Assembly: GCA_019456255.1 (NCBI GenBank)
Contig: VRUG01000007.1
Span: 1 to 64,000 of the forward strand
Reading direction: 5' to 3'
Origin: Planctomycetota bacterium
Lineage (GTDB): Bacteria; Planctomycetota; Phycisphaerae; Sedimentisphaerales; Anaerobacaceae
Length of the DNA: 64,000 nt
Part shown: piece by piece, positions 9,193 to 64,000 of the stretch
Layout: each line of letters starts with the position of its first letter
Numbering within the stretch: the first letter of the stretch is position 1
The notes under the pieces: generated by a model
The model's database searches: none
Seen by the model: only the letters and a program-made list of their open reading frames with translations
What the model was told of the DNA's origin: nothing
Program-made: the position numbers and the translations under genes

Positions 9193-9609
9193 ATGAAACT
9201 GGCACCATTAGTAACTGACAATATAACTGAATTACTCGTTAAGATAATAGAATTTACTCAAACTCGTCAGAAGCTTATCACCCTGAATATAAATAACCTT
9301 CATACGACTGGCTTTGTCCCGCATGATTTGGCAGTGGATGAGTTTTCGTATGCAATGACTAACGCTGTTGACGAGCATGTTCGCAGCCATCGTCTTTTAC
9401 TTCAGGACAGCGATAACGTCAAATTTGGAGCAGTAGGTAGTTTTGAAGTCAAGCCTATAATTGACGAGGAAGCGAAAGAACTGCTTGAGAGGGATGTAAA
9501 CGAATATCTTGAGTTTCAAATCAATAAACTGTTGGAGAACTCGCTTAACCAGCGCATAGCGGCAGAATTGATGAAACAAAAGCCTGAAATAATGTCAATT
9601 TTTGAGTAA
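9193..9609 (+). CDS. FlgB-like flagellar rod protein (divergent)
   Basis: A 138-residue protein. Its first third ('RQKLITLNINNLHTTGF') resembles the ANNIANANTPGY-type motif of flagellar rod protein FlgB. The C-terminal helical end has the length and placement of the FlgB D0 helix. FlgB forms the proximal rod next to the MS ring. The match is weak: the motif is degenerate (LNINNLHTTGF), so other coiled-coil flagellar proteins remain possible. The ATG at 9193 follows AGAGG. It overlaps no gene and ends 25 bases before flhG, with fliA next, so a flagellar role is well supported by context. Confidence 0.5.
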   Translation: MKLAPLVTDNITELLVKIIEFTQTRQKLITLNINNLHTTGFVPHDLAVDEFSYAMTNAVDEHVRSHRLLLQDSDNVKFGAVGSFEVKPIIDEEAKELLERDVNEYLEFQINKLLENSLNQRIAAELMKQKPEIMSIFE

Positions 9610-9634
9610 TTATACGATAAAAATCGAGGGACCG

Positions 9635-10480
9635 ATGGAAAACAATGCAATTCACTTACAACAGATGATGGAAAGCTGCCAGCAGCCTGGTAAGGTTTTA
9701 GCTATCACGAGCGGCAAAGGTGGTGTGGGCAAAACGAATATTGCGGCCAACCTGGCGATATGCATGGCAGCATCCCGCAAAAAAGTTTTACTTATCGATG
9801 CTGATTTTTCTTTAAGTAATCTTGACGTCATCATGAACTTAAACAGCAAATACAACCTTTCGCATTTGCTTAAGGGCCGCAAAAGCATCGAGGAAATTAT
9901 TCACACTGGTCCGGAAGGATTGGAAGTCATTTGCGGTGTTTCTGGTTTTGAAGAGTTTGCCGACCTTAGCGAGTTTCAACGTCAGCGTCTTTTAAATGAG
10001 TTTTCCAAACTTCAAAATAATACCGATGCGTTGATAATCGATACAGCTGCGGGGATTTCAAAATCGGTAATAGCTTTTTGTCTATCAGCTGACCATGTAT
10101 TAGTTGTGACAACCCCTGAATCTACAGCAATGACTGACGCCTATGCGGTCATTAAGGTTCTTGCCGGCAACCGGTTTTCCGGTCGGATAAGTCTTATTGT
10201 GAATATGGCAGATAGCATCGCCGAGGGCAAGAAGACTTATCAGCAAATCACCAATGTCGTGAAGCAGTTTTTAAATATCCAGGTTTACAGTGCCGGTGTG
10301 CTATTGAAAGATGAGCGTGTTAGTTCTGCCGTCAAATTGAGGAAACCGGTAGTTTTAGCTTATCCCAAATCGCAAATTACGTCATCGTTGGTGGCTTTAG
10401 CGGCGAAACTGAGCCGCAGTTCGGCAGCGGCGCCTAATGAGGAAGGCTTTTTTAGTAAAGTTGTTGACTGGTTCTTCTAA
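9635..10480 (+). CDS. flhG: FlhG/MinD-type ATPase controlling flagellar number
   Basis: A ParA/MinD-superfamily ATPase. FlhG (FleN, YlxH) sets flagellar number and placement, usually with FlhF. The deviant Walker A 'SGKGGVGKT' is at residues 26-34, and 'LLIDADFSLSNLDV' and 'ALIIDTAAG' give the switch and Walker B regions. Length (281 residues) fits. ATG 9635 is preferred because GAGGGA lies just upstream; an earlier in-frame TTG overlaps the previous gene. Assignment to FlhG over MinD rests on the FlgB-like gene before it and fliA after it. The C-terminal 'VVDWFF' end is reminiscent of membrane-binding tails. flhF is not in this window. Confidence 0.85.
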   Translation: MENNAIHLQQMMESCQQPGKVLAITSGKGGVGKTNIAANLAICMAASRKKVLLIDADFSLSNLDVIMNLNSKYNLSHLLKGRKSIEEIIHTGPEGLEVICGVSGFEEFADLSEFQRQRLLNEFSKLQNNTDALIIDTAAGISKSVIAFCLSADHVLVVTTPESTAMTDAYAVIKVLAGNRFSGRISLIVNMADSIAEGKKTYQQITNVVKQFLNIQVYSAGVLLKDERVSSAVKLRKPVVLAYPKSQITSSLVALAAKLSRSSAAAPNEEGFFSKVVDWFF

Positions 10481-51913: not shown

Positions 51914-53023
51914 TTACGCTAAAGTTAAATTTTTCCCGGTATCGCCCGGTTCAAATAGGTCGAACTTATCAGCGTTTATATAAACGTTCATTTTATCCTC
52001 TATCTTTACCGGAATATCAGGGTCAATACTCGCGATGAACCGGTCATTATTTTTGGTACTGAAATAAACCTCAACTCTATCGCCAAGAGGTTCAATCACC
52101 TCAACTGTAGATTCGATAATATTTTCAGTTTGTCCCTGAGGCGGGGTCATTGTTATGTTCTCAGGTCTAACGCCAAGTACAACATTTTTCCCGCTATATT
52201 CAGATAGCTTCTGTTTAACTGATTGAGAGCATTTTACTTGAAAAGCTGAATTGACAAAATACATGTCACCATTTTTCAATTCCAACTGTCCATCAAATAA
52301 ATTCATCGGAGGTGTACCCAGGAAACCAGCTACAAATCTATTTACCGGCTTATTATAAACTTCAAGCGGAGTATCGACCTGCTGAACAAGACCCTTATAC
52401 ATTACGCATATCCTGTCGCCAAGTGTCATAGCTTCTGCCTGGTCGTGGGTGACATAAATCGATGTCGTTTTCAAACGATGGTGCAGTGATTTTAATTCTG
52501 CCCGCATCGTAACTCGTAATTTTGCATCGAGGTTGCTTAACGGTTCGTCAAACAAAAACGCTGCTGGATTTCGAACAATCGCTCGACCAACCGCGACCCT
52601 TTGGCGCTGGCCCCCTGAAAGCGCTTTTGGCTTACGTTTAAGCAGTTCCCCTATCCCTAAAAGTTCTGCTGCATCTTCAACACGCTTTTTTATTTCTGCT
52701 TTCGGGAACTTACGAAGCTTCAACCCGAATGCCATATTTTGAAATACTGTCATGTGCGGGTAGAGAGCGTAGTTTTGAAATACCATGGCAATGTTACGGT
52801 CCTTTGGCAGCACATCATTTACGACGTTGTCTCCAATCGAGACTTTCCCCTCTGTAACATCTTCGAGTCCAGCTATCATGCGCAGTGTTGTGGTTTTTCC
52901 GCAGCCGCTTGGCCCTACAATAACCATAAACTCACGGTCATTTATTTCCAGGTTCACCTTATCGACAGCTATGACGTCGCCATCAAATATCTTAGTTACG
53001 TTTTCAAGCAGTACCTTCGCCAT
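51914..53023 (-). CDS. MalK/UgpC-type ABC transporter ATPase
   Basis: A 369-residue ATP-binding protein of the carbohydrate importer class (CUT1): Walker A '[12 protein letters not shown]', signature '[15 protein letters not shown]', Walker B '[11 protein letters not shown]' and a C-terminal TOBE/OB domain ('[12 protein letters not shown]'). It is encoded alone, with no permease or binding protein near, as is usual for shared multi-system ATPases such as MsmK. A terminator follows. Confidence 0.93.
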
Positions 53024-53191: not shown

Positions 53192-54160
53192 CTAATAAGT
53201 GATTAATTTTTCAGCTTCGACGAAAGCCTTCCAGAACTTCAAGACACTTTGCTTTTCAAACTCAGCTGTGAACCCTGCCGCCGTCGATAGTGCATTTTGG
53301 CGAATAGACTCGACGCGGTCGTCACCGGTTTGAACCTGCTCTATCAGCTCGGCAAGTTTCTTTGATAAGTCAACAACATTCATACTTTCAGCCAGTATAA
53401 AGTTTTGCTTCTCACCTGAACCAATAATAAAATCCTTGCCGCCTATCCCGTCGAAACCGACACACAAACAACCGCAAGCCATAGCTTCTAAGATAGGACG
53501 AGGGAACCCTTCGGATGTTGAAGTAGTTAAATATATTTTCGATTCCTTGAGAACCTGTGCGTACTGCGTAATATCAAGGTGTTCAATAGCGGTAAAATTC
53601 ATGTCGCCCAAAGACTTGGCTTTTGATTTCATTATCTTCTCTATCATTGGAGAAAGCATGTCTTTTCTTTTTAGATACGCAACCTGATCTTGTTTTATAT
53701 CAGAATTATATCCGAATAAATCGTGGTCAATAGATGAATTAATCACATGAATGTTCTCAATGTCCATACTCCACCCGATAAAGTCAGCCATACTCTTATT
53801 GTTGGCCATGACCCAGTTAATTCCATAATCTTTCCAGTTTTCCCCGGACGGCATCGAGTCAAAGATATATGCAAAACTAAGCGATATAGCAACTTTCTTG
53901 ACCGAGAAGGGATGAAACTTTTTCATGATATTCGGAAAACCTTCCGGGACGACAATCACATCCGAAGAACCAAACTCAGGCGAATCAGCATCATAAACTA
54001 CCGGCACGTCACTTTCAAACCAGCCAGGCTTAAAGTCTTTGGCAGAGTGCTTAATGTATGCGTCATAGCCTCCCTGTCGCAATATTTCCACATGGGTATA
54101 AAGTCTCTTTATCCCGCCTGACGGGAAACTGCAATCCGGACATAAATAAAATATTCTCAT
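53192..54160 (-). CDS. Glycosyltransferase, GT4-like
   Basis: A 322-residue GT-B glycosyltransferase. The N-terminal block 'CSFPSGGIKRLYTHVEIL' is a glycine loop, and the C-terminal donor site reads 'STSEGFPRPILEAMACG' (E-x7-E). No membrane segment. Last gene of a minus-strand run of five glycosyltransferases next to flagellin. It likely trims or extends a flagellin glycan. Confidence 0.85.
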   Translation of the reverse strand: MRIFYLCPDCSFPSGGIKRLYTHVEILRQGGYDAYIKHSAKDFKPGWFESDVPVVYDADSPEFGSSDVIVVPEGFPNIMKKFHPFSVKKVAISLSFAYIFDSMPSGENWKDYGINWVMANNKSMADFIGWSMDIENIHVINSSIDHDLFGYNSDIKQDQVAYLKRKDMLSPMIEKIMKSKAKSLGDMNFTAIEHLDITQYAQVLKESKIYLTTSTSEGFPRPILEAMACGCLCVGFDGIGGKDFIIGSGEKQNFILAESMNVVDLSKKLAELIEQVQTGDDRVESIRQNALSTAAGFTAEFEKQSVLKFWKAFVEAEKLITY

Positions 54161-54208
54161 TACTATTCTTTCAACATCACAAAATAATAAAACATAAAAT
54201 AAACCAAC

Positions 54209-55045
54209 CTATTTGCCAGCAACAGCAGGTCGGTGTTCCAAAACCTTATACAACTTAATTATTCTATCAATGTGATAATGCCTTGCCCTTGTAAATGCAA
54301 GCTCAGAGTATTTTTTATACATATCTTCGTCTTCTTTCAAAGCCAAACACGCTTCGACAATCTTGTCGAGATTCTCGGCTGGAATAAAACAACCATCCAT
54401 CTCTCGAACATAATTAGGTTCAGGGTAACCCACAGTTGGTATCTTAAACGAACCCGCATTGGTCAGTTTTAAGGGATTCTTCAACTCAGATGGTATATTA
54501 CTGACCGTTTCAATATTCCTGAATGTTATTTGTATGTCAATCTGTTTATAGAAATTGCAAATATCTTCCCTGCCAAGTGAAACATCATCAACAAACAAAT
54601 AAATGAAATTTATTCCAACAGCTTTTAATCTCTCCGTTAAATCATTGATGTTCATTGTAAAATTATATTTACTTCCGACATACCCTGCCGTCATAACAGC
54701 CTCTCTGTTTCTTACAATACCCTCAAAGTTGCAATGATGTTCCGGTATAACTACTATATCATTATCAAGCTTTTGTGAAATATATTCCTTTGCTAAATTG
54801 GTGATCGCGATAATATGAATATCCGGATACTGCTGGCCAAACTGCAAAAAACTCTCACTATCACCTATATCTAAATAGACATTTTTAATTCTTTCAGCTC
54901 TTTCAAACCATGTCTTGACAAGTATAGCTGTATCACTTAAGGACAGGTGGTCCGGATTGAATGGAACATTTAGTCGTTCGGCAACCTGCTTTCCTCTGAT
55001 GAGTGAACTTGCCCACTTTTGATTTGTTACAAAAACTAAACCCAT
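54209..55045 (-). CDS. Glycosyltransferase-like protein
   Basis: A 278-residue protein that resembles the C-terminal half of a GT-B glycosyltransferase ('VMTAGYVGSKYNFTM', 'PLKLTNAGSFKIPTVGY', 'GCFIPAENLDKIVEACLAL'). It lacks the typical E-x7-E site. It may be a short or divergent enzyme or a non-catalytic partner. It starts on the base after the stop of the first GT41 gene, so they must be translated together. Confidence 0.65.
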   Translation of the reverse strand: MGLVFVTNQKWASSLIRGKQVAERLNVPFNPDHLSLSDTAILVKTWFERAERIKNVYLDIGDSESFLQFGQQYPDIHIIAITNLAKEYISQKLDNDIVVIPEHHCNFEGIVRNREAVMTAGYVGSKYNFTMNINDLTERLKAVGINFIYLFVDDVSLGREDICNFYKQIDIQITFRNIETVSNIPSELKNPLKLTNAGSFKIPTVGYPEPNYVREMDGCFIPAENLDKIVEACLALKEDEDMYKKYSELAFTRARHYHIDRIIKLYKVLEHRPAVAGK

Positions 55046-56785
55046 TTAAACACCTAATTCAATATGTTCTTTAGAAATATCAACACCTTTCGACTGACAC
55101 CACTGATGCCACATTTTCCTGTAAGCAGCCTCAACTTTTCTGCCAAAGCCCTTCGAATAACAAAGCCCGCTGGCAGAGATTCTACCTCGCATCGTCCTTC
55201 GCAGAATAGAAAGTGCCTCAAGATTTTGCGCGAGTACAATAGCTTTCTTGACATATTCATCGCCTGTAGATGCGGCAAAAAACTCTAATCCCACACAACT
55301 GAGCATACTTAGTCCAAAGCGTGAAACATGACACTGGCCAATCAGTGAAATCGTGGGCACGCCCATCCAAAGTGCCTCACAGGTATTTGTATGGCCGTTA
55401 AACGGATAAGTATCTAAAATAATATCAACTTCACTATAAATTTCTAAATGGTCAGCAAGACTTTTCCATCCGCCTACATCAACCCTATTTTGCAAGATTC
55501 CCAGCTGTTCAAATTGATTCGCCCAATGCTGTTTTACACCTTCGTCGTCACCGCCTTTAAATCTTATTATCATGCGCGAGTTATCATTTGCTTTTAAAAT
55601 TTTTGCCCAAAGCTCAACCGTCGGCAGATGAATCTTACAGCTGTTATTAAATGATGCAAAAGTCACATGGCCCTTTTGCGATGCTGGAAGCGGTGTCAAT
55701 GACGGCGCGAAATCCAAAGGCCTGTAACAACTGAAAACACCCGGCAAACAAACCAGCTTCTCACTGTAATATTGTTGTGACTGCGGCGGATTGGTAATGC
55801 TATCGGTCATACGATAGTCAATCGCCTCCATTCCCGTCGTATCAGAGTATCCAAGATATGTCACCTGCACCGGCGCAGGTTTACAGGCCATAACACCTAA
55901 TCGGTTGTCACTTGTATGACCTGCAAGATCCACGAGGATATCTATCTGGTCCTCTTCGATTAGATTCACAACTTGCTTATCATCAATCTGGTATATGTCA
56001 CGGTAATTATCAAACTTGGATTTAAACCTCTCGGTGACAGTATCGGGATAAGCAACATTACCATACCCATAAACTTCAACGGCATCCCTGTTATGGCCAT
56101 CCAGGAGAGGCTCAAAGAAAAATGCCACTGGATGCATGCGAAAGTCCGGAGAAATATATCCAACCTTCAATTTTCGGTCAGGGTCAGGATTGTTACCATG
56201 CGATGACTTTGCCAAGCTAATAGGCGCATATTTTTGGGCCCATTTCTTATGTTCATCATAAAGCATCTTCGGGTCAAGCTGGGGCAATTGGTGCAAACGG
56301 AACAGCAAATTGGAATGCGCGTGGGCATTTTCAGGCATATGGTCTATCGCTTTTCGCAATAAATCTATTCCATTTTGTATTTGCCCCGTCTCCATTAAGA
56401 CGCGTGCAAGATTCGCCCAAAGTTCAGGCCTGTGGGATTCAGCCTCTACTGCTTTCTTTTGATATTCTAACGCATCGGTCAATCGCCCCATGTACTGATA
56501 CAAATTTCCAAGCTTATTCAAAGTTACAGCATCGGATTCTTTTTCAAGTATTGTCATGTAACATTGCACAGCTCTAATTTCTCTTCTTACTTTGACTAAA
56601 AGTTTCGCAAGTTCGTAAACCAACTCCTTATTAGAAGTATCTTTTTCAAAAATCTGGTATATCGCCCCGATAAGATAGTCATTTAGAATTTTAGATGCGT
56701 TATCTTTTCTGCCTATGCCAAGGGCAGCTTCTGCTTTTCCAAGCTGTTCTTTAACAAATAAAATGTCACTACTTATATTTTCCAT
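55046..56785 (-). CDS. TPR-GT41 O-GlcNAc-transferase-like glycosyltransferase, copy 1
   Basis: A 579-residue protein: TPR repeats in residues 1-165, then a catalytic GT41 domain like that of O-GlcNAc transferase (OGT) and SPINDLY. His218 in 'ISPDFRMHP' aligns with the active-site His498 of human OGT. 'LAGHTSDNR' and Lys in 'FNNSCKIH' match further OGT residues. Intact of the three copies here, it is likely to add a sugar (GlcNAc or a derivative) to Ser or Thr of a protein, the nearest candidate being flagellin. Soluble, cytoplasmic. Confidence 0.9.
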   Translation of the reverse strand: MENISSDILFVKEQLGKAEAALGIGRKDNASKILNDYLIGAIYQIFEKDTSNKELVYELAKLLVKVRREIRAVQCYMTILEKESDAVTLNKLGNLYQYMGRLTDALEYQKKAVEAESHRPELWANLARVLMETGQIQNGIDLLRKAIDHMPENAHAHSNLLFRLHQLPQLDPKMLYDEHKKWAQKYAPISLAKSSHGNNPDPDRKLKVGYISPDFRMHPVAFFFEPLLDGHNRDAVEVYGYGNVAYPDTVTERFKSKFDNYRDIYQIDDKQVVNLIEEDQIDILVDLAGHTSDNRLGVMACKPAPVQVTYLGYSDTTGMEAIDYRMTDSITNPPQSQQYYSEKLVCLPGVFSCYRPLDFAPSLTPLPASQKGHVTFASFNNSCKIHLPTVELWAKILKANDNSRMIIRFKGGDDEGVKQHWANQFEQLGILQNRVDVGGWKSLADHLEIYSEVDIILDTYPFNGHTNTCEALWMGVPTISLIGQCHVSRFGLSMLSCVGLEFFAASTGDEYVKKAIVLAQNLEALSILRRTMRGRISASGLCYSKGFGRKVEAAYRKMWHQWCQSKGVDISKEHIELGV

Positions 56786-56814
56786 AATCTATATTGCTGT
56801 TTTAACTCAATATA

Positions 56815-58515
56815 CTACTCTGTTTCGGTCCACCGATGCCACATCTTGCGATATGCCGCTTCTAAATTACGTGCGAAGCCTTTAGCGTAGCATAGGCCGC
56901 TATTTGCAATTCTTGCCCGCATGGAAGTGCGAATCTGCGCAAGCGATTGGATGTTCGATGCCAACGCAATAGTTTTACTTACATACTCTTCGGGATTCGA
57001 TGCAGCAAAAAATTCCAGACCCACTCGGCTAAGTATGCTAAGCCCAACTCTCGATGCGTGATATTGCCCAACCAGTGAAACTACCGGAACTCCCATCCAC
57101 AGAGCCTCACATGTGGTCGTCGTGCCATTATAAGGATATGTATCTAACGCGATATCAACATGGTCATATAACTTTAGATGCTCATCCGGGCGTCCCCAAC
57201 CGTAAATCAACACCTTTTCTTTTTCAATTCCAAGTTCTCTAAATTGCTGATGATAACGCTGACGAATTTGCTCATCGTTGCCTCCTTTGAACTTGAGCAA
57301 CAGTCGTGAATTTTGAGTTTCTTTTAGAATTTTGGCCCAAAGCCCTATAACAACCTTATTCATCTTACAGTTATTATTGAATGAGCCGAAAGTTATAAAC
57401 CCATTTTTCTCAGCTGGCAATGGTGCAACCGCAGAAGCAAAATCAGCGGGCCTGTAACACAAAAATCCATCCGGCAAACAAACCAACTTCTCGGTATAGT
57501 ACTTCTGCAATTTGGCAGGGTCGGCCAATACATCGGTCAGACGATAATCAATTGCTTCGACTCCGGTTGTATCGGGATAACCAAGCCATGTCACCTGAAT
57601 CGGGGCAGGCTTGTATGACATAACGAGAAGCCGATTGTTACCTGTATGCCCTGCCAAATCTACCAGAATATCTATCTCGTCACTTTCAATTAATTCAACA
57701 ACCTGCTTATCATCGATTCCATAAATATTATGATAGCAATTAAATTTGCCCTGCAAACGTTCAGTGACGGAATCTGGAAACTCTACATTACCATATCCAT
57801 AAGTTTCAACTACCTGCCCATCATGCCCATCAAGAAGTGATTCAAAAAAATACGCCACTGAGGTTCTGCGGAAATCAGGTGAAATATATCCAACACGAAG
57901 CCTCCTGTCAGGATTACGGTCATTTGAGTGGGAAGTTTTAGCGCGTTTTAGAGGTGCAAATGTTTGGCCCCATTTTTTATGCTCGGCAAAAAGTCTTTCC
58001 GGTTCAAAAGTCGACAATTGATGCAAATGGAAAAGTAATATCGAGTGGATTTGCGCATTTTGAGGTAGTTTTTCCGCTGCCCGCTGGAGAAAAGTCACCC
58101 CTTCCTTAACCTCCCCTGTACAAATCAGCAATCTGCCAAGATTTGCAAAAAGTTCGCCTCTATCCGGCTGGACCTCCAAAGCCTTTCTTTGATACGTAAC
58201 CGCTTCCCAGAGTCTGCCCATATATTCACAAAGGCGCCCCAGCTTATTGTATGCTGCGGCGTCAGGACCTTTGGCGAGGATTTTCTTATACCAATTTTCT
58301 GCCTGTTCTACATTTTTGGTCTGCAGTAAAAGCTCTGCAATTTCAAATACTAAATCCGTCCTGGTAGGGTCAGCTTCGAAAATCTGACTGACAGTTTTTT
58401 CGGCCTTGTCAGCCAATATTTCAGCCGCCCTTTCAAGCTGTCGGCTCTCAACAGCGAATTTGGCCTCAGCAAGGGGCTCGGGCATAACATCCATGTAACG
58501 CTTTAATTTAGTCAC
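56815..58515 (-). CDS. TPR-GT41 glycosyltransferase, copy 2, with altered active-site position
   Basis: A 566-residue paralogue of copy 1, with the same TPR then GT41 plan. Where copy 1 has 'DFRMHP' this one has 'DFRRTS', so Thr218 replaces the expected His. The 'LAGHTGNNR' His and the Lys in 'FNNNCKMN' remain. It may be catalytically weak, use another base or have a partner-like role. It starts 39 bases after the end of copy 3 and ends 29 bases before copy 1. Confidence 0.88.
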   Translation of the reverse strand: MTKLKRYMDVMPEPLAEAKFAVESRQLERAAEILADKAEKTVSQIFEADPTRTDLVFEIAELLLQTKNVEQAENWYKKILAKGPDAAAYNKLGRLCEYMGRLWEAVTYQRKALEVQPDRGELFANLGRLLICTGEVKEGVTFLQRAAEKLPQNAQIHSILLFHLHQLSTFEPERLFAEHKKWGQTFAPLKRAKTSHSNDRNPDRRLRVGYISPDFRRTSVAYFFESLLDGHDGQVVETYGYGNVEFPDSVTERLQGKFNCYHNIYGIDDKQVVELIESDEIDILVDLAGHTGNNRLLVMSYKPAPIQVTWLGYPDTTGVEAIDYRLTDVLADPAKLQKYYTEKLVCLPDGFLCYRPADFASAVAPLPAEKNGFITFGSFNNNCKMNKVVIGLWAKILKETQNSRLLLKFKGGNDEQIRQRYHQQFRELGIEKEKVLIYGWGRPDEHLKLYDHVDIALDTYPYNGTTTTCEALWMGVPVVSLVGQYHASRVGLSILSRVGLEFFAASNPEEYVSKTIALASNIQSLAQIRTSMRARIANSGLCYAKGFARNLEAAYRKMWHRWTETE

Positions 58516-58554
58516 GATTAAACCTTAACAAATCCTTATTCGTTTTTCAACTAC

Positions 58555-60331
58555 TCAACTTGACTCAAGCCATCTATACCACATTTTCCTGTAGGCTTGT
58601 TCGACTTCCAATGCCAATCTTTTTGAATCGCACAACACACTATCAGCCATGCGCTGCCGCAGCGAACTCCTCATTTCTGCAAGATATTGCTGCTCGGAGG
58701 CCAGCGAAACGGCCTTTGCCACATACTCTTTTTTGTTCACTGCCGCAAGTTCACTCAGTTCCAAACGACTAAGTATACTCAGGCCTTGTTCGGGAAAACG
58801 GAAGCTTGCCAACTAAAGAAACGACCGGTACGCCCATCCATAAAGCCTCACATGTTGTCGTAGCACCGTTTTTAGGATAGGTATCCAGAACAATATCAAT
58901 ATTATTATATTGCTCCAAATAATCTGTATAACAGACCCAGCCTGTAATCTCAATCCGGTCCCTATCAATTCCAAATTTCTCGAACTGCTCAAAATAATAC
59001 TCCTGCACCTGATTATCATTGCCGCCGGTAAATTTAAAAAAGAGGCGACTGTTTTTTACAGCATGGAGTATCTTGGCCCAAAGCTCAATCATTACAGGAT
59101 TTATCTTTATGCTGCTGCCTAAAACACCGAATGTAATATAACCATTCTTCGAAGCAGGCAAAGGACCAACAGGCCCAGCTTCATCTAAAGGCTGATAGCA
59201 ATAAAAACCATTCGGCAAAAATACAGATTCCTCTGTGCAGTAGTTTTGCGAATCAGAACTCTCAGTCAACTCATCGGTTAAACGATAATCAATTGCCGAC
59301 ATACCAGTAGTGTAAATATACCCCAGATAAGCCACCTGAATTGGAGCTGGTTTATGACCCATAACCATAAGACTATTGTCAGCTGTATGCCCCGACAAGT
59401 CCACAAGAATATCTATTCTGTCATTTTCAATCATCTCGACAATCGATTCATTATCCATGCCGCGAATATTTCGGTAATAACCAAATTTATTTTTAAGACG
59501 TTCTGTAATATGGGTGTGAACCATGACATTACCATAGCCATAAAGTTCAACAGCTTCTCTATTATGACCATCAAGAAGCGGTTCAAAAAAATGTGTTACA
59601 GGATGTGAACCAAAATTGGGTGAGATATAACCAATACGAAGTTTACGGTCATTGACTCGACTATTTTTATAAGCTTTCTTTGTCAACTGCTCTGGGATAT
59701 GTTTGCGAGACCATTGCAAATGCTCTTCAAAAAGAATTTCAGAATTAATATCCGGAAGATGGTGCAGGTAAAACAGGAGATTTGAATGAATAGCAGCATT
59801 GTCTGGGTCAGATTCGACAGCTTTCCTGAACATTGCGAGCCCTTCTTTGGCTTGGCCTGTTTCTATCAATGCTCTGGCAAGATTAACCCACAACTGTCCG
59901 TACTCAGGGCTAAGCTGGACCGCTTTTCGATAATGCTGTATCGACTCAGATACACTACCAATATGTTCGCAGGTTTGTCCAAGTTCATTGTAGATTAGAC
60001 CGTGTGGTTCCTGAGATATAATTTTTTCAAATAACTGTTTAGCCATATTTATCCGACCGACCTGGCGAAATATCATCGCAACTATCAACATGATATCTGT
60101 TCTTGAGGAATCGTTATTTAATAATTCTTCAATTTCTCCCCTGCATTGCTCATGTAATATTTGGCGTGCTTTATCCGTCTGGCCAATACTGGCTGCTTCA
60201 TTAGCTCTTATAAGAGGCTCAGGTAAGTCACCGCATAAGTTCTGAATTCGTAAATTTCCCTCTTCCATGACAAGGTTCTTAATCCTGCCTTGTGACATAA
60301 CCGGTTTTTTACAAATCTTAGGTTCGCTCAT
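58555..60331 (-). pseudogene. TPR-GT41 glycosyltransferase, copy 3, with single-base frameshift
   Basis: The first frame (60331-58769) runs through TPR repeats and most of GT41, including 'ISPNFGSHP' with its His, then leaves homology after 'VSLVGKLPFSR' and stops. The rest of the domain continues in another frame from about 58795 to 58555 ('QGLSILSRLELSE' ... 'AYRKMWYRWL'). Removing one base of the TT at 58789-58790 (plus strand) restores the reading 'FSRQGLSILS', which matches the other copies. A real frameshift, phase variation or a sequencing error could explain it. Without its C-terminus the product would lack part of the UDP-binding half. Confidence 0.85.
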
Positions 60332-60519
60332 TTTTAAGGCTTTAACTATATCTTATTAATGCGTTAACTAAAAAATTGTCTTAATACTACTAAAAAGACA
60401 GGCTCACGGGCAATATCCTTGCCCAAGTCTTACTGCACACATCCTTATCATATACCATCGGCAAATATCTATCGTTTAAAATAGATTTTTATAGGAACAA
60501 TAGCCCCGCCCAATTAAGC

Positions 60520-60554
60520 AAAAAAAATGACAGACTTATCAAAAGCCTGCCATT
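60520..60554 (-). terminator. Intrinsic terminator after fliS
   Basis: Twelve-base arms (60543-60554 and 60526-60537) pair with two G-U pairs around a five-base loop, and the minus strand then has eight Ts (60527-60520). Confidence 0.8.
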
Positions 60555-60587
60555 ACGTTGTCATGTTTGTTTAAATGTACCAGATTA

Positions 60588-60947
60588 TTAGTCTGTTATT
60601 GCTTTCCAGCTTTGATTCAACTCTTCCATCAAGGAGATTACTTCCCGAATCATCTGTGCATCACCTTTAATATTAGCCTGAGACAGATGGCGAGCCATAA
60701 ATAAGTAAAGCTTACGCAGGTTTGTCGCGACTTCATCACCAGCTTCCATATTCAGGACTGAATTGAGCTCATTAACAATATCCAGAGCTCTATTGATATA
60801 CTGGCCCTTCTCCATTAAATTGCCTGATTCTATTTCCCTGATTGCCAGTCTCAAGAACTTAATCGCACCATCATAGAGCATAACTATAATACGACCTTTG
60901 CTTTGAGTACCAACTGAGGTTTCATGGTATGCTGAGACTCCGTTCAT
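60588..60947 (-). CDS. fliS: Flagellar export chaperone FliS
   Basis: A 119-residue helical chaperone that binds the C-terminal helix of flagellin and prevents its early polymerisation before export. The family blocks 'YHETSVGTQSKGRIIVMLYD' and 'LNMEAGDEVATNLRKLYLFM' are clear. It lies 151 bases after flagellin on the same strand, with a terminator following. fliD is not seen here. Confidence 0.95.
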   Translation of the reverse strand: MNGVSAYHETSVGTQSKGRIIVMLYDGAIKFLRLAIREIESGNLMEKGQYINRALDIVNELNSVLNMEAGDEVATNLRKLYLFMARHLSQANIKGDAQMIREVISLMEELNQSWKAITD

Positions 60948-61043
60948 TATTCAACTCCCTTATATAACAGGTATTTCTACACCTGGTTATTGACTTGTTA
61001 ATTTACTTGAAAATTTAGCAGACTGACAGGAACTTTAATTTAT

Positions 61044-61107
61044 GGGGAGATGACTATTATTAGCCATCTCCCCTGAGATTCTATATCTCAGATAATAATT
61101 ATCTGAG
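61044..61107 (-). terminator. Hairpins at the flagellin 3' end
   Basis: Perfect arms GGGGAGATG (61044-61052) and CATCTCCCC (61065-61073), and a 10-bp palindrome CTCAGATAAT/ATTATCTGAG (61087-61107) across the flagellin stop codon. There is no clear T-run, so they may act in mRNA stability or partial termination before fliS. Confidence 0.45.
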
Positions 61108-61920
61108 CAGTTGCAATGCCATCTGAGGCATTGTGTTAGCTTGTGCTAACATGGAAATACCAGCTTGTGCTAACACCTGGTTACGTGTCATTTGTGCCAT
61201 CTCGGTTGCAACGTCTACGTCTGAAATACGAGACTCTGCAGATAGCAGGTTCTCTGCCTGAATGTTAAGCACGTCCGATGTACCTGAAAGTCGGTTCATC
61301 TTATAACCGAATTTCGCACGGGCGGTGTCTTTGGTGTTAATCGCGCTCTCAAGTCTGCCCAAAGCTGTCTTTGCACAGCCTGTTGCATCAATTCCCAGAC
61401 CGGTCAGATTAAGACCTGCTGAAGCGCTGGTCATGATACTACCAGAAATGTCGATCTTATCTGAGGTCAACTCACCAAAGTGGATGGATACCGTAGCGGT
61501 ATCATCAAGCATCGAAATGTCATTAAACTTGGTCGCTGTTGCAATACGGTCGACCTCTTGACGCATTTCGCTGAATTCGTTGTGCATAATTGCACGCTGC
61601 GAACTCGAATAGGAACCCGTAGCTGCTTGTTCAGCTAGCTGCTGCATACGAATGAGGATATCGTCGATCGTAGCCAACGCACCTTCCATCGTCTGTAGCA
61701 AACTAATGCCATCCTGAGCATTACGAGAACCCTGCTGCAGCACTGCGATGTCTGCACGCATTAACTCACGTACAGCCAAGCCAGCTGCGTCGTCCTTAGC
61801 ACTGTTAATACGCAGGCCGGACGAGAGCCTTTCGACTGACTTGGATAAGCTATCGTAGCTTTTACTCAAGTGTCGAGCGGCGTTTTCTGCCATAAGGTTG
61901 TTCTTTATTACTAAAGCCAT
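61099..61920 (-). CDS. fliC: Flagellin
   Basis: A short flagellin of 273 residues: N-terminal D0/D1 ('SVERLSSGLRINSAKDDAAG') and C-terminal D1/D0 ('ISDVDVATEMAQMTRNQVLAQAG'), joined by a brief Ser/Thr-rich centre (about 140-185) with no D2/D3 domains. It contains one Cys, Cys182, which is rare in flagellins. AAGGAG lies before the ATG. A sigma-28-like promoter lies about 125 bases upstream. The surrounding glycosyltransferases suggest that Ser/Thr of the centre are glycosylated. Confidence 0.96.
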   Translation of the reverse strand: MALVIKNNLMAENAARHLSKSYDSLSKSVERLSSGLRINSAKDDAAGLAVRELMRADIAVLQQGSRNAQDGISLLQTMEGALATIDDILIRMQQLAEQAATGSYSSSQRAIMHNEFSEMRQEVDRIATATKFNDISMLDDTATVSIHFGELTSDKIDISGSIMTSASAGLNLTGLGIDATGCAKTALGRLESAINTKDTARAKFGYKMNRLSGTSDVLNIQAENLLSAESRISDVDVATEMAQMTRNQVLAQAGISMLAQANTMPQMALQLLR

Positions 61921-62319
61921 GTTTTTAACTCCTTAAAAAAGTTCCTAACAATTTTCCGGCCCTGTCAAGCCTTGTTTATCGTCACAATATTTTAATATGC
62001 AAAGAACACTTCTTCGGAAAAACGCTTCCATCGCTTCCATTGCCAATTATCGACTCCTCCTAAAATGACTTAAGTGTTTTATTAAGCTGTAATAACGCAT
62101 ATATGTCCCGACCTGTAAAATCTTAACTGATGATACTGATAGTGCTGTTTCTGACACGGAGCAGTGGTAAAAAAATAAAAAAATATAGTGTATATGACAC
62201 TAAAATTATTTAAATCGGACTTATATGCTTAAGTAATACAGCCCCACACACTAAGCATTAAGAATATATAAAAAAGGTAGTTGCTCACATCAACCCAGGT
62301 TATTATACTTCAAAAATAT
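61921..62319. promoter_or_regulatory. Divergent region between flagellin and a glycosyltransferase gene
   Basis: No gene. It contains the sigma-28-like promoter at 62047-62073 and a 6-bp inverted repeat TAGTGT/ACACTA at 62186-62202 in an A/T-rich context on the glycosyltransferase side. Confidence 0.5.
62047..62073 (-). promoter_or_regulatory. Sigma-28 promoter for flagellin
   Basis: On the minus strand TTAA (62073-62070), 15 bases, then GTCGATAA (62054-62047), against TAAA-N15-GCCGATAA. One mismatch in each box. Confidence 0.55.
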
Positions 62320-63327
62320 ATGAGTGAAAAACAACAATCTAACGAGAAGGTGTTGCTTGTATTCAACTGTCACGAACCATGGGTCTATCAACTCGATTCA
62401 CTGGGATATAAACTCGATATAATCATTGGGCTAAAGGGTCGCTATCAGAAAACCTGGGACCAAAAGATGAGGCCTGTCCCGACCAATTCCAACTTGCTTA
62501 CTTTGGAAGAGGCACAAAATTCAAAAACAAATTACTACTGTATAATAACTCATAACCTGACTGATTTACTTGATGTCAAGCACCGCCATGAGCCGCGGCT
62601 TATTGTTCTGCATTCAACTCTTGAAGGAAGAATATCTGAAGAAACAGGCACGGTAGAATCTACGGAAATGAGAAATACTTTGCAGGAATATTTGACATTG
62701 CTCGGAGGCCATGCTGTTGCAGGCACTGACCTGAAAGCAAAGTCATGGCAAATCACTGACGATGTGGTAAATTGCGGTGTCGATGTAAATGATTATTTGC
62801 CATACTCAGGCCAAGATGCATCGGGGCTTAGAATTTGTAATTTTATTGAGAACAGAAAGAAAATTCTTTTGTGGGACCTCCACGAAAAAGCTTTTTCTGA
62901 TATTCCCGTAAAACTGCTGGGGCACAATCCTGCCATACCAGATTCCACTGCTGCTGAAAATTGGGACGACCTAAAAAGAACACTGCAATCTCACCGCTTC
63001 TTTATTCATACTGCTGCCCCGAATCTCGAAGACGGTTTCAACATGGCTGTCATGGAAGCTATGGCTACCGGCATGCCCATCCTGGGAAACCACCACCGCA
63101 GCTCCCCTATCGAACACGGGGTGAATGGTTTTTTAAGTGACGACCCAGATGAACTAAACAAATATGCAAAAATACTTTTAAACGATAGAGAGTTAGCTGC
63201 GAAAATGGGACAGCAAGCGCGAGTGACTGTTGCCGAACGTTTTCCAATAAGCAAATTCAAACAGGGCCTCTTAAAATCAATAGAAACTGCTCGGCAAAAA
63301 ACTAAAAGCAGAATGGTTAACCTTTGA
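62320..63327 (+). CDS. Glycosyltransferase, GT4-like
   Basis: A 335-residue GT-B-type glycosyltransferase. The C-terminal donor site reads 'EDGFNMAVMEAMATG' (E-x7-E), followed by 'HRSSPIEHGVNGFL', common in GT4 enzymes. The N-terminal half is divergent. The ATG at 62320 lacks a ribosome binding site; a TTG at 62281 has AAAGG but at short spacing. It is divergent from flagellin and next to fliK, so it probably belongs to the same glycosylation locus. Confidence 0.8.
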   Translation: MSEKQQSNEKVLLVFNCHEPWVYQLDSLGYKLDIIIGLKGRYQKTWDQKMRPVPTNSNLLTLEEAQNSKTNYYCIITHNLTDLLDVKHRHEPRLIVLHSTLEGRISEETGTVESTEMRNTLQEYLTLLGGHAVAGTDLKAKSWQITDDVVNCGVDVNDYLPYSGQDASGLRICNFIENRKKILLWDLHEKAFSDIPVKLLGHNPAIPDSTAAENWDDLKRTLQSHRFFIHTAAPNLEDGFNMAVMEAMATGMPILGNHHRSSPIEHGVNGFLSDDPDELNKYAKILLNDRELAAKMGQQARVTVAERFPISKFKQGLLKSIETARQKTKSRMVNL

Positions 63328-63376: not shown

Positions 63377-64000
63377 CTATACCAGCATATTGATGAAATC
63401 TTCACTAACCTGCCAATTAGCTTTATTAGAACCGCTGTATAATTCACCACTCCTCAACTGCTCATAAGTTCCGGACCAATCCCCATTATTGTCCCTACTT
63501 GTGCTGTCAGTTGAACCTTGGTACCCTGCCTGGCCCTGCCCTTCCTGCTCAGTTGTCATTAATGACGGCTCTTTAAACGACTGCTGGTTCGACTGTTCAT
63601 TTAAAACCACCTCAACACGCCTAATTTGAACTCCCGAGTCTGTAAGGTTTCGGATTATTTCGGGAAGGGAATGTTCAATCTCATAGCGGGTTTGTGCTTT
63701 GTCCACTTCCAGTAAGCCTGTGAGTTGTCCGTCCTGCTCCTGGAATTTAATCGATACTCTTCCGAGTTCAGGCGGGTTGAGGTGGATGGTTATCTGGTTA
63801 TCACCCTGTTTCAGGGTGCTGCTTATTGATTCCTGTACCTGCTCTTTAATCCCTGCTGACAAATCCTGGGATGCAACATTAGTATTTGCCTTTGCGGTTT
63901 GAGCAGTCGATGCTGTCTGGCTTGTAACTGATAGCGGGCTATTACCGCCTGCAATTATTTGAGCAAATTCACCCGAACTTGATTGTGAGCCATTATTCGA
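63377..64000 (-). CDS. fliK: Flagellar hook-length control protein FliK, C-terminal part (cut by window edge)
   Basis: The frame is open to the right edge, so at least 208 residues of the C-terminus are seen and the N-terminus is missing. The block 'ITIHLNPPELGRVSIKFQEQ' is the FliK C-terminal signature that switches export from hook to filament. A Ser/Gln/Gly-rich tail follows. An apparent internal TTG start at 63862 is not the true start. It belongs to the flagellar gene group. Confidence 0.88.
   Translation of the reverse strand, partial: SNNGSQSSSGEFAQIIAGGNSPLSVTSQTASTAQTAKANTNVASQDLSAGIKEQVQESISSTLKQGDNQITIHLNPPELGRVSIKFQEQDGQLTGLLEVDKAQTRYEIEHSLPEIIRNLTDSGVQIRRVEVVLNEQSNQQSFKEPSLMTTEQEGQGQAGYQGSTDSTSRDNNGDWSGTYEQLRSGELYSGSNKANWQVSEDFINMLV

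Follow-up and report, generated by a model that had tools for sequence, protein, structure and literature searches.

Tandem TPR-GT41 genes behind flagellin in a planctomycete: a candidate glycosylation island with a SPINDLY-like donor pocket

A 64,000-nucleotide stretch of a planctomycete genome (here the window; positions 1-64000 of the 129,479-base contig C324, VRUG01000007.1) carries glycosyltransferase genes on both sides of the genes for flagellin and its export chaperone FliS, among them three tandem genes that join N-terminal tetratricopeptide repeats (TPRs) to a GT41 catalytic domain. The explanation that we favour for the locus as a whole, with moderate confidence, is a flagellin glycosylation island in which the second of these genes (copy 2) encodes an enzyme that would favour a GDP-sugar. 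Flagellin glycosylation as such is quite likely, judging from the gene neighbourhood in the window and in related genomes. The host genome is a 4.07 Mb draft, 94.5% complete, and statements about it as a whole derive from family (profile) searches. Comparisons within the family refer to a sample of 89 genomes, comprising this one (G000) and 88 others.

Synteny of GT41 and flagellin genes

GT41 genes were detected in 28 of the 89 family genomes and matches to Flagellin_N, which also include FlgL, in 70. None of the 19 Flagellin_N-negative genomes contains a GT41 gene (p = 4.7e-4 by Fisher's test, with genomes counted as independent despite their kinship). In 19 of the 28 GT41-bearing genomes, representing many genera, GT41 and flagellin share a contig, mostly with GT41 directly behind fliS (G000, G007, G016, G019, G022, G032, G034, G035, G041, G053, G058, G059, G061, G066, G072, G084, G085, G087 and G088). 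The complete order of fliK, divergent GT4, flagellin, fliS and GT41 is also found in four further genera (G019, G032, G059, and G087 with G088). GT41 lies behind fliK in G015, and the loci of four of the 28 genomes are cut off at contig edges (G036, G052, G054 and G083). The original prediction had read the stretch as a flagellin glycosylation locus and had named, as what would speak against it, relatives in which GT41 is never linked to flagellar genes; the observed synteny supports that reading.

The minus-strand gene order, followed from 65.3 kb of the contig down into the window, is FliK, flagellin, FliS, a hairpin, the three TPR-GT41 open reading frames (ORFs), an orphan ORF and a GT4-type glycosyltransferase (Table 1). 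Flagellin and fliS are thus flanked by GT41 and GT4 genes, as in a flagellin island. All three copies match PF13844 (Glyco_transf_41) above the curated cut-off of 25 bits, each in two stretches that represent both catalytic halves, and all three match TPR families above cut-off in their N-terminal parts, so the domain search proposed with the original prediction bears out its assignment. They are the only PF13844 genes found in the genome. The AlphaFold model of copy 2 (predicted local distance difference test, pLDDT, 87.6) contains an arm of helical repeats.

Most GT41 loci of the family have one catalytic domain, but others have two (G041, G058), four (G016), six (G084), at least six (G083) or seven (G085). 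The largest array, with about 13 tandem domains, occupies a 23.8 kb contig that opens with the end of flagellin followed by FliS (G053:C26:1-23803; L059 and L060, which overlap and were counted jointly). The three copies in the window are a modest number next to such arrays.

Donor pockets and sugar supply

The three enzymes had been described as OGT-like. In the sense of O-GlcNAc transfer this label does not hold, as the nearest solved structure is that of the O-fucosyltransferase SPINDLY and the uridine-binding arginine of OGT is absent. Copy 2 matches Arabidopsis SPINDLY with an E value of 1e-119, compared to 3e-84 for TtOGT, 1e-70 for human OGT and 1e-40 for XcOGT, and a structure search with its AlphaFold model returned SPINDLY first (template modelling score 0.86-0.89 on the query).

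The choice of donor is set by K689, A731 and Y744 in SPINDLY, which uses GDP-fucose, and by L866, R904 and C917 in OGT, which uses UDP-GlcNAc (PMC10027727, PMC9715652). The SPINDLY positions are occupied by K, L and Y in copy 2, by R, I and F in copy 3, and by K, Q and K in copy 1; the position of T747, a fucose contact, holds T in copy 2, H in copy 3 and A in copy 1. None of the copies carries the full SPINDLY combination, of which copy 2 has two residues out of three. All three copies, like 58 of 60 family domains, retain the essential donor-phosphate lysine (SPINDLY K665; K384 in copy 2), and the guanine-contacting K689 is conserved in 55 of the 60 and, within the window, in copies 1 and 2. 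At the Y744 position the family has Tyr in 41 domains and Phe in 15, and copy 1 is alone in having Lys. None of the OGT residues is found in any of the three copies, which places them outside the OGT/SEC-like clan; Arg at the R904 position, the uridine contact, occurs once in the 60 family domains. Prokaryotic GT41 proteins form an intermediate group with mixed patterns of donor residues (PMC10027727). Strictly read, copy 2 is a member of this group by its residues, and among the three copies it alone has a SPINDLY-like pocket (K408, Y462 and T465 in its own numbering), the pocket of copy 3 having diverged at the K689, Y744 and T747 positions. These residues suggest that UDP-GlcNAc is a less likely donor and GDP-sugars more likely ones; we propose a GDP-sugar tentatively, with a confidence just short of even.

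In the mechanism that we envisage, the GT41 enzymes would use their TPR arms to hold flagellin in the cytoplasm before its export, by analogy with SPINDLY, OGT and FlmG, and their catalytic domain would attach the first sugar to Ser/Thr in the core of the protein. Copy 2 would be the conserved main enzyme, with a pocket favouring a GDP-activated small (deoxy)hexose, for example fucose, over UDP-GlcNAc. Copy 3, with its changed sugar pocket, would probably use another donor or site, and the GT4 enzymes encoded on either side may extend or decorate the sugar.

Modification of flagellin with UDP-GlcNAc as the donor, as in animal OGT or Listeria GmaR, appears unlikely. The copies belong to the same Pfam family, and the His of copy 3 at the T747 position matches the HTT motif of human OGT. 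The mixed, intermediate nature of bacterial GT41 proteins (PMC10027727) also leaves room for such a donor, but SPINDLY scores far above OGT, and L866, R904 and C917 have no counterpart in the three copies. FlmG-like action with a nonulosonic acid of the pseudaminic or legionaminic type is highly improbable. The combination of TPRs with a glycosyltransferase domain and the flagellin target resemble FlmG (PMC7591256), and NeuB-type genes are present on contigs C65 and C340. However, the NeuB clusters are unlinked to the island, the pocket is SPINDLY-like and does not resemble that of a CMP-sugar enzyme of known structure, and relatives encode proteins of FlmG-like layout, with a long TPR array and a short GT9-like domain, in genes of their own.

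Contig C65 also carries a Gmd gene (544 bits against a curated cut-off of 415), which an Fcl-like gene adjoins, and this pair represents a possible GDP-fucose supply. In relatives, the genes after the GT41 array include short-chain dehydrogenase sugar genes (G084, G085) and a CDP-glucose dehydratase (G016). Only the last exceeds its curated cut-off, so these genes do not settle the donor.

Several observations weigh against an island with a GDP-sugar-favouring copy 2. The A731 position of copy 2 holds Leu instead of Ala, and the His495 position holds Thr; mutation of His495 to Ala or Phe kills SPINDLY (PMC9715652), although 9 of the 60 family domains have Asn or Gly there. The Fcl-like gene scores 282 bits, below its curated cut-off of 500. 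The interval from fliK to the ABC transporter gene at 51914-53023 contains no sugar-nucleotide or sugar biosynthesis gene; such genes are a hallmark of islands, though they are present in only some published ones. The Ser/Thr content of flagellins shows no difference between GT41-positive and GT41-negative genomes (p = 0.33 overall and 0.72 for the loop region), and in genus g40 (G067-G070, four of the 28) GT41 is located away from flagellin.

The last observation also bears on the possibility that the GT41 enzymes target other proteins or envelope glycans and that their proximity to flagellin is incidental, the more so as copy 1 groups with the unlinked g40 copies. In a broad search of bacterial genomes, 66 of 78 GT41 loci outside the family had no flagellin within the fetched flanks, while the other 12 did, in Planctomycetota and several other lineages. 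Nevertheless, we consider an incidental placement improbable in view of the repeated linkage behind fliS in many genera and the absence of GT41 from Flagellin_N-negative genomes. As a rough estimate, a gene placed at random in a genome of 4-5 Mb would fall within 15 kb of flagellin in well below 1% of cases.

The tandem copies and their neighbours

Copy 1 contains, as assembled, a single frameshift inside the overlap 58769-58812 (near 58787), which splits the match to a catalytic-domain profile built from family members, so that only copies 2 and 3 are intact as read. Three tandem same-strand GT41 genes with N-terminal TPRs do follow flagellin and FliS as predicted, whereas the further idea of three working paralogues does not fit the assembled sequence. 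Of the 72 conserved columns covered by copy 1, 4 deviate, no more than in other family members, which indicates that the break is recent or an assembly error. SPINDLY without its C-terminal helices (the spy-18 allele) is null (PMC10027727); by this analogy copy 1 should be inactive, and is probably dead, if the frameshift is real.

If the frameshift is instead an assembly error, all three copies could be active, on different Ser/Thr or in turn. The good conservation of both halves of copy 1 fits this possibility, as do the differences among the copies at the sugar-contact sites. We nonetheless regard it as doubtful, considering the frameshift in the assembly, the null phenotype of spy-18 and the Lys of copy 1 at the Tyr744 position. 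The differences at the sugar-contact sites are consistent with different donors, and the donor pockets as a whole lean towards different donors or roles for the copies.

Copy 2 is nearest to the flagellin-linked single-copy GT41 of other genera, with 71% identity to that of G019 over the catalytic domain. In a 44-row tree, copy 1 joins the flagellin-unlinked copies of genus g40 (support 98/90) and copy 3 joins copy 2 weakly (80/36). A quick tree placed the three copies in separate clades; a tree joining them was 43 log units better, and a single clade of the three was not rejected by the approximately unbiased test (p = 0.23). These trees do not decide whether the copies stem from a lineage-specific expansion or are older and separate, and they neither show nor exclude a recent triplication.

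Table 1. Features of the flagellin region in the window, in descending order of position.
Feature	Position	Strand	Evidence
FliK (flagellar hook-length control), C-terminal part	63377-64000	-	PF02120 Flg_hook 55.8 bits; gene extends to contig position 65335
GT4-type glycosyltransferase, divergent from flagellin	62281-63327	+	PF00534 38.3 bits
Flagellin, 273 aa, presumed acceptor	61099-61920	-	PF00669 Flagellin_N 124 bits and PF00700 Flagellin_C 85 bits, both above cut-off
FliS, flagellin export chaperone	60588-60947	-	PF02561 132.5 bits
Terminator-like hairpin behind fliS	60526-60554	-	12 pairs, then T run: TTTTTTGCTT
TPR-GT41 copy 1, N-terminal 520 aa to frameshift	58769-60331	-	PF13844 125 bits; TPRs; catalytic profile 1-288
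TPR-GT41 copy 1, C-terminal piece, other frame	58555-58812	-	catalytic profile 288-360, 89 bits
TPR-GT41 copy 2, 566 aa, intact	56815-58515	-	PF13844 174 bits; SPINDLY E 1e-119
TPR-GT41 copy 3, 579 aa, intact	55046-56785	-	PF13844 170 bits
Orphan ORF, 278 aa, abuts copy 3	54209-55045	-	no Pfam/NCBIfam match
GT4-type glycosyltransferase, final gene of island	53192-54160	-	PF00534 49.7 bits

The run that starts with copy 1 and closes with the last GT4 gene has gaps of 0-50 bases between its members and, on account of this tight spacing, probably forms a single transcript. The hairpin behind fliS is weak, with 9 terminator-like sites observed in the region against 8.8 expected. A sigma-28-like promoter upstream of flagellin (62073, minus strand) matches at 12 of 16 positions, but the window has 20 matches of this kind over its two strands, and the site was not used; sigma-70-type promoter sites occur at the frequency expected by chance.

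No other neighbour of flagellin is as conserved in the family as the GT4 gene divergent from it, which had been anticipated as a sixth glycosyltransferase and is confirmed by PF00534. It occupies the equivalent place in G001, G004, G019, G028, G032, G036, G038, G059, G073, G074, G087 and G088, of which G001, G004, G028, G038, G073 and G074 lack GT41, which makes it the better conserved component of the island. One of the two additional glycosyltransferases expected after the GT41 trio is the final GT4 gene. The second, the orphan ORF, is without a relative in any of the 88 further family genomes, and the sole basis for calling it a glycosyltransferase is one weak GT4 match (32% over 120 aa, E = 7e-4). 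Its single-sequence AlphaFold model (pLDDT 39.6) was discarded.

The flagellin had been thought very short and unusual, but its length is the norm in the family, where 49 of 67 collected flagellins have 255-300 aa, and several solved filaments are built from flagellins of 270-286 aa. Flagellins of about 430-440 aa are found in most multi-copy GT41 genomes and also in GT41-less genomes (G017, G018, G075, G080), so flagellin length is not tied to GT41. Loop alignment points to a presumably exposed Ser/Thr loop, MTSAS (aa 163-167; MTSASA at aa 163-168, 61417-61434 in the window), as a candidate acceptor site; the MTSASA loop is clade-specific and longer than in most GT41-less relatives. A co-variation of the TSAS loop with GT41 was striking in the alignment, but the short-flagellin carriers mostly belong to one clade. 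Only three independent contrasts were left and the loop pattern misclassified some rows, so the co-variation was not counted as evidence. Distant from the flagellar cluster, a 259-aa ORF has a weak Flagellin_N match of 32 bits (G000:C298:6309-7088, L046).

The flagellar cluster is large and continues on the contig past the window. Two adjoining FliG-like ORFs with similar N-termini, as judged by eye, lie there behind a FliF-like ORF (L010:8405-9415 and 9473-10231; contig 68405-70231). A second glycan island is located between fliD and flgL (C324:83410-99995, L011:3410-19995). It includes ORFs of 2181 aa (GT4, GT1_2 and three GT2 stretches), 933 aa (glycosyltransferase, methyltransferase and polysaccharide deacetylase) and 1174 aa (PGA_cap and a weak GT11 match), together with a GT2, a GT4 and a TPR protein, and may build or extend the filament glycan.

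Comparison with known systems and implications

Listeria and Clostridium were originally cited as precedents for flagellin glycosylation by GT41-type enzymes. Listeria GmaR is a flagellin glycosyltransferase with TPRs, but its layout is reversed, with an N-terminal glycosyltransferase domain of about 180 residues and the TPRs after it, and it has an antirepressor domain and uses GlcNAc (PMC9638930). The enzyme of Clostridium botulinum belongs to the Maf proteins (PMC11339370), flagellin glycosyltransferases that share the target protein but form a different family. A search for a canonical Maf enzyme was negative, and the PF01973 matches of the genome are confined to a 2308-aa GT2/TPR protein away from the flagellin locus. 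This protein (G000:C89:32284-39210, L177:5285-12211) combines GT2, TPR, methyltransferase and two MptE-like (PF01973) stretches and adjoins a 1692-aa ORF; the piece read contains no flagellar genes nearby.

Closer precedents are the enterobacterial flagellin islands, where GT41/SPINDLY enzymes (COG3914), 11 of them distinct, were reported from 198 strains (De Maayer and Cowan 2016, PMC4875605), and, for the mode of action, Caulobacter FlmG (PMC7591256). The enterobacterial islands likewise place GT41 genes beside flagellin and often leave sugar supply to genes elsewhere. They differ in having 1-3 glycosyltransferases each, from one family per island, with nearly all GT41 domains fused to a methyltransferase domain, whereas the planctomycete GT41 genes are in tandem (3 here, up to about 13 in relatives), lack the methyltransferase fusion, are mixed with GT4 and stand behind fliS. 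FlmG is a cytoplasmic TPR-glycosyltransferase whose TPR domain binds flagellin, its substrate for glycosylation, but a single enzyme serves six flagellins with pseudaminic acid as the donor, and its TPR and glycosyltransferase halves measure 313 and about 288 residues (PMC7591256). Genes of 533-608 aa with a similar layout, in which a short GT9-like domain accompanies long TPR arrays, lie near flagellin in several relatives (L049:4141-12557 in G016, L072:16162-19999 in G084, L052:10950-14656 in G022 and L070:4850-6388 in G072; two were checked with Pfam and the rest assigned by weak TPR similarity). Arabidopsis SPINDLY shares with the planctomycete copies the TPRs, a GT41 domain without the insert of OGT, and the essential lysine, and with copy 2 also the guanine-contacting Lys and the sugar-contacting Tyr and Thr (PMC10027727, PMC9715652). 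The planctomycete copies differ from it in a shorter TPR arm, an identity of about 37%, Leu, Ile or Gln in place of A731, and changed sugar pockets in copies 1 and 3; their substrate is presumably a single secreted protein, compared to many nuclear and cytosolic ones for SPINDLY.

GT41 enzymes in enterobacterial flagellin islands are thus already published, and the new elements here are the array and the diverged donor pockets. We found no paper on enzymes of planctomycete flagellin glycosylation in the open-access literature. Very few of the SPINDLY-like GT41 proteins that are common in bacteria have been characterised (PMC10027727). In this family a candidate substrate is suggested by position, as the flagellin gene lies next door in many genera. 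The system is therefore suited to asking which sugar is transferred, whether the K689/A731/Y744 rule extends outside eukaryotes, and how tandem copies divide the work.

These results lead us to speculate, as a possibility that we hold at low confidence, that flagellin in this family is coated by arrays (2-3 copies here, up to about 13) of SPINDLY-like GDP-sugar O-glycosyltransferases with diverged pockets, giving a species-specific, multi-sugar filament; flagellin would then be O-fucosylated in bacteria by enzymes related to one that plants use in signalling. Should GDP-fucose prove to be the donor, flagellin would become a bacterial substrate for protein O-fucosylation of the SPINDLY type.

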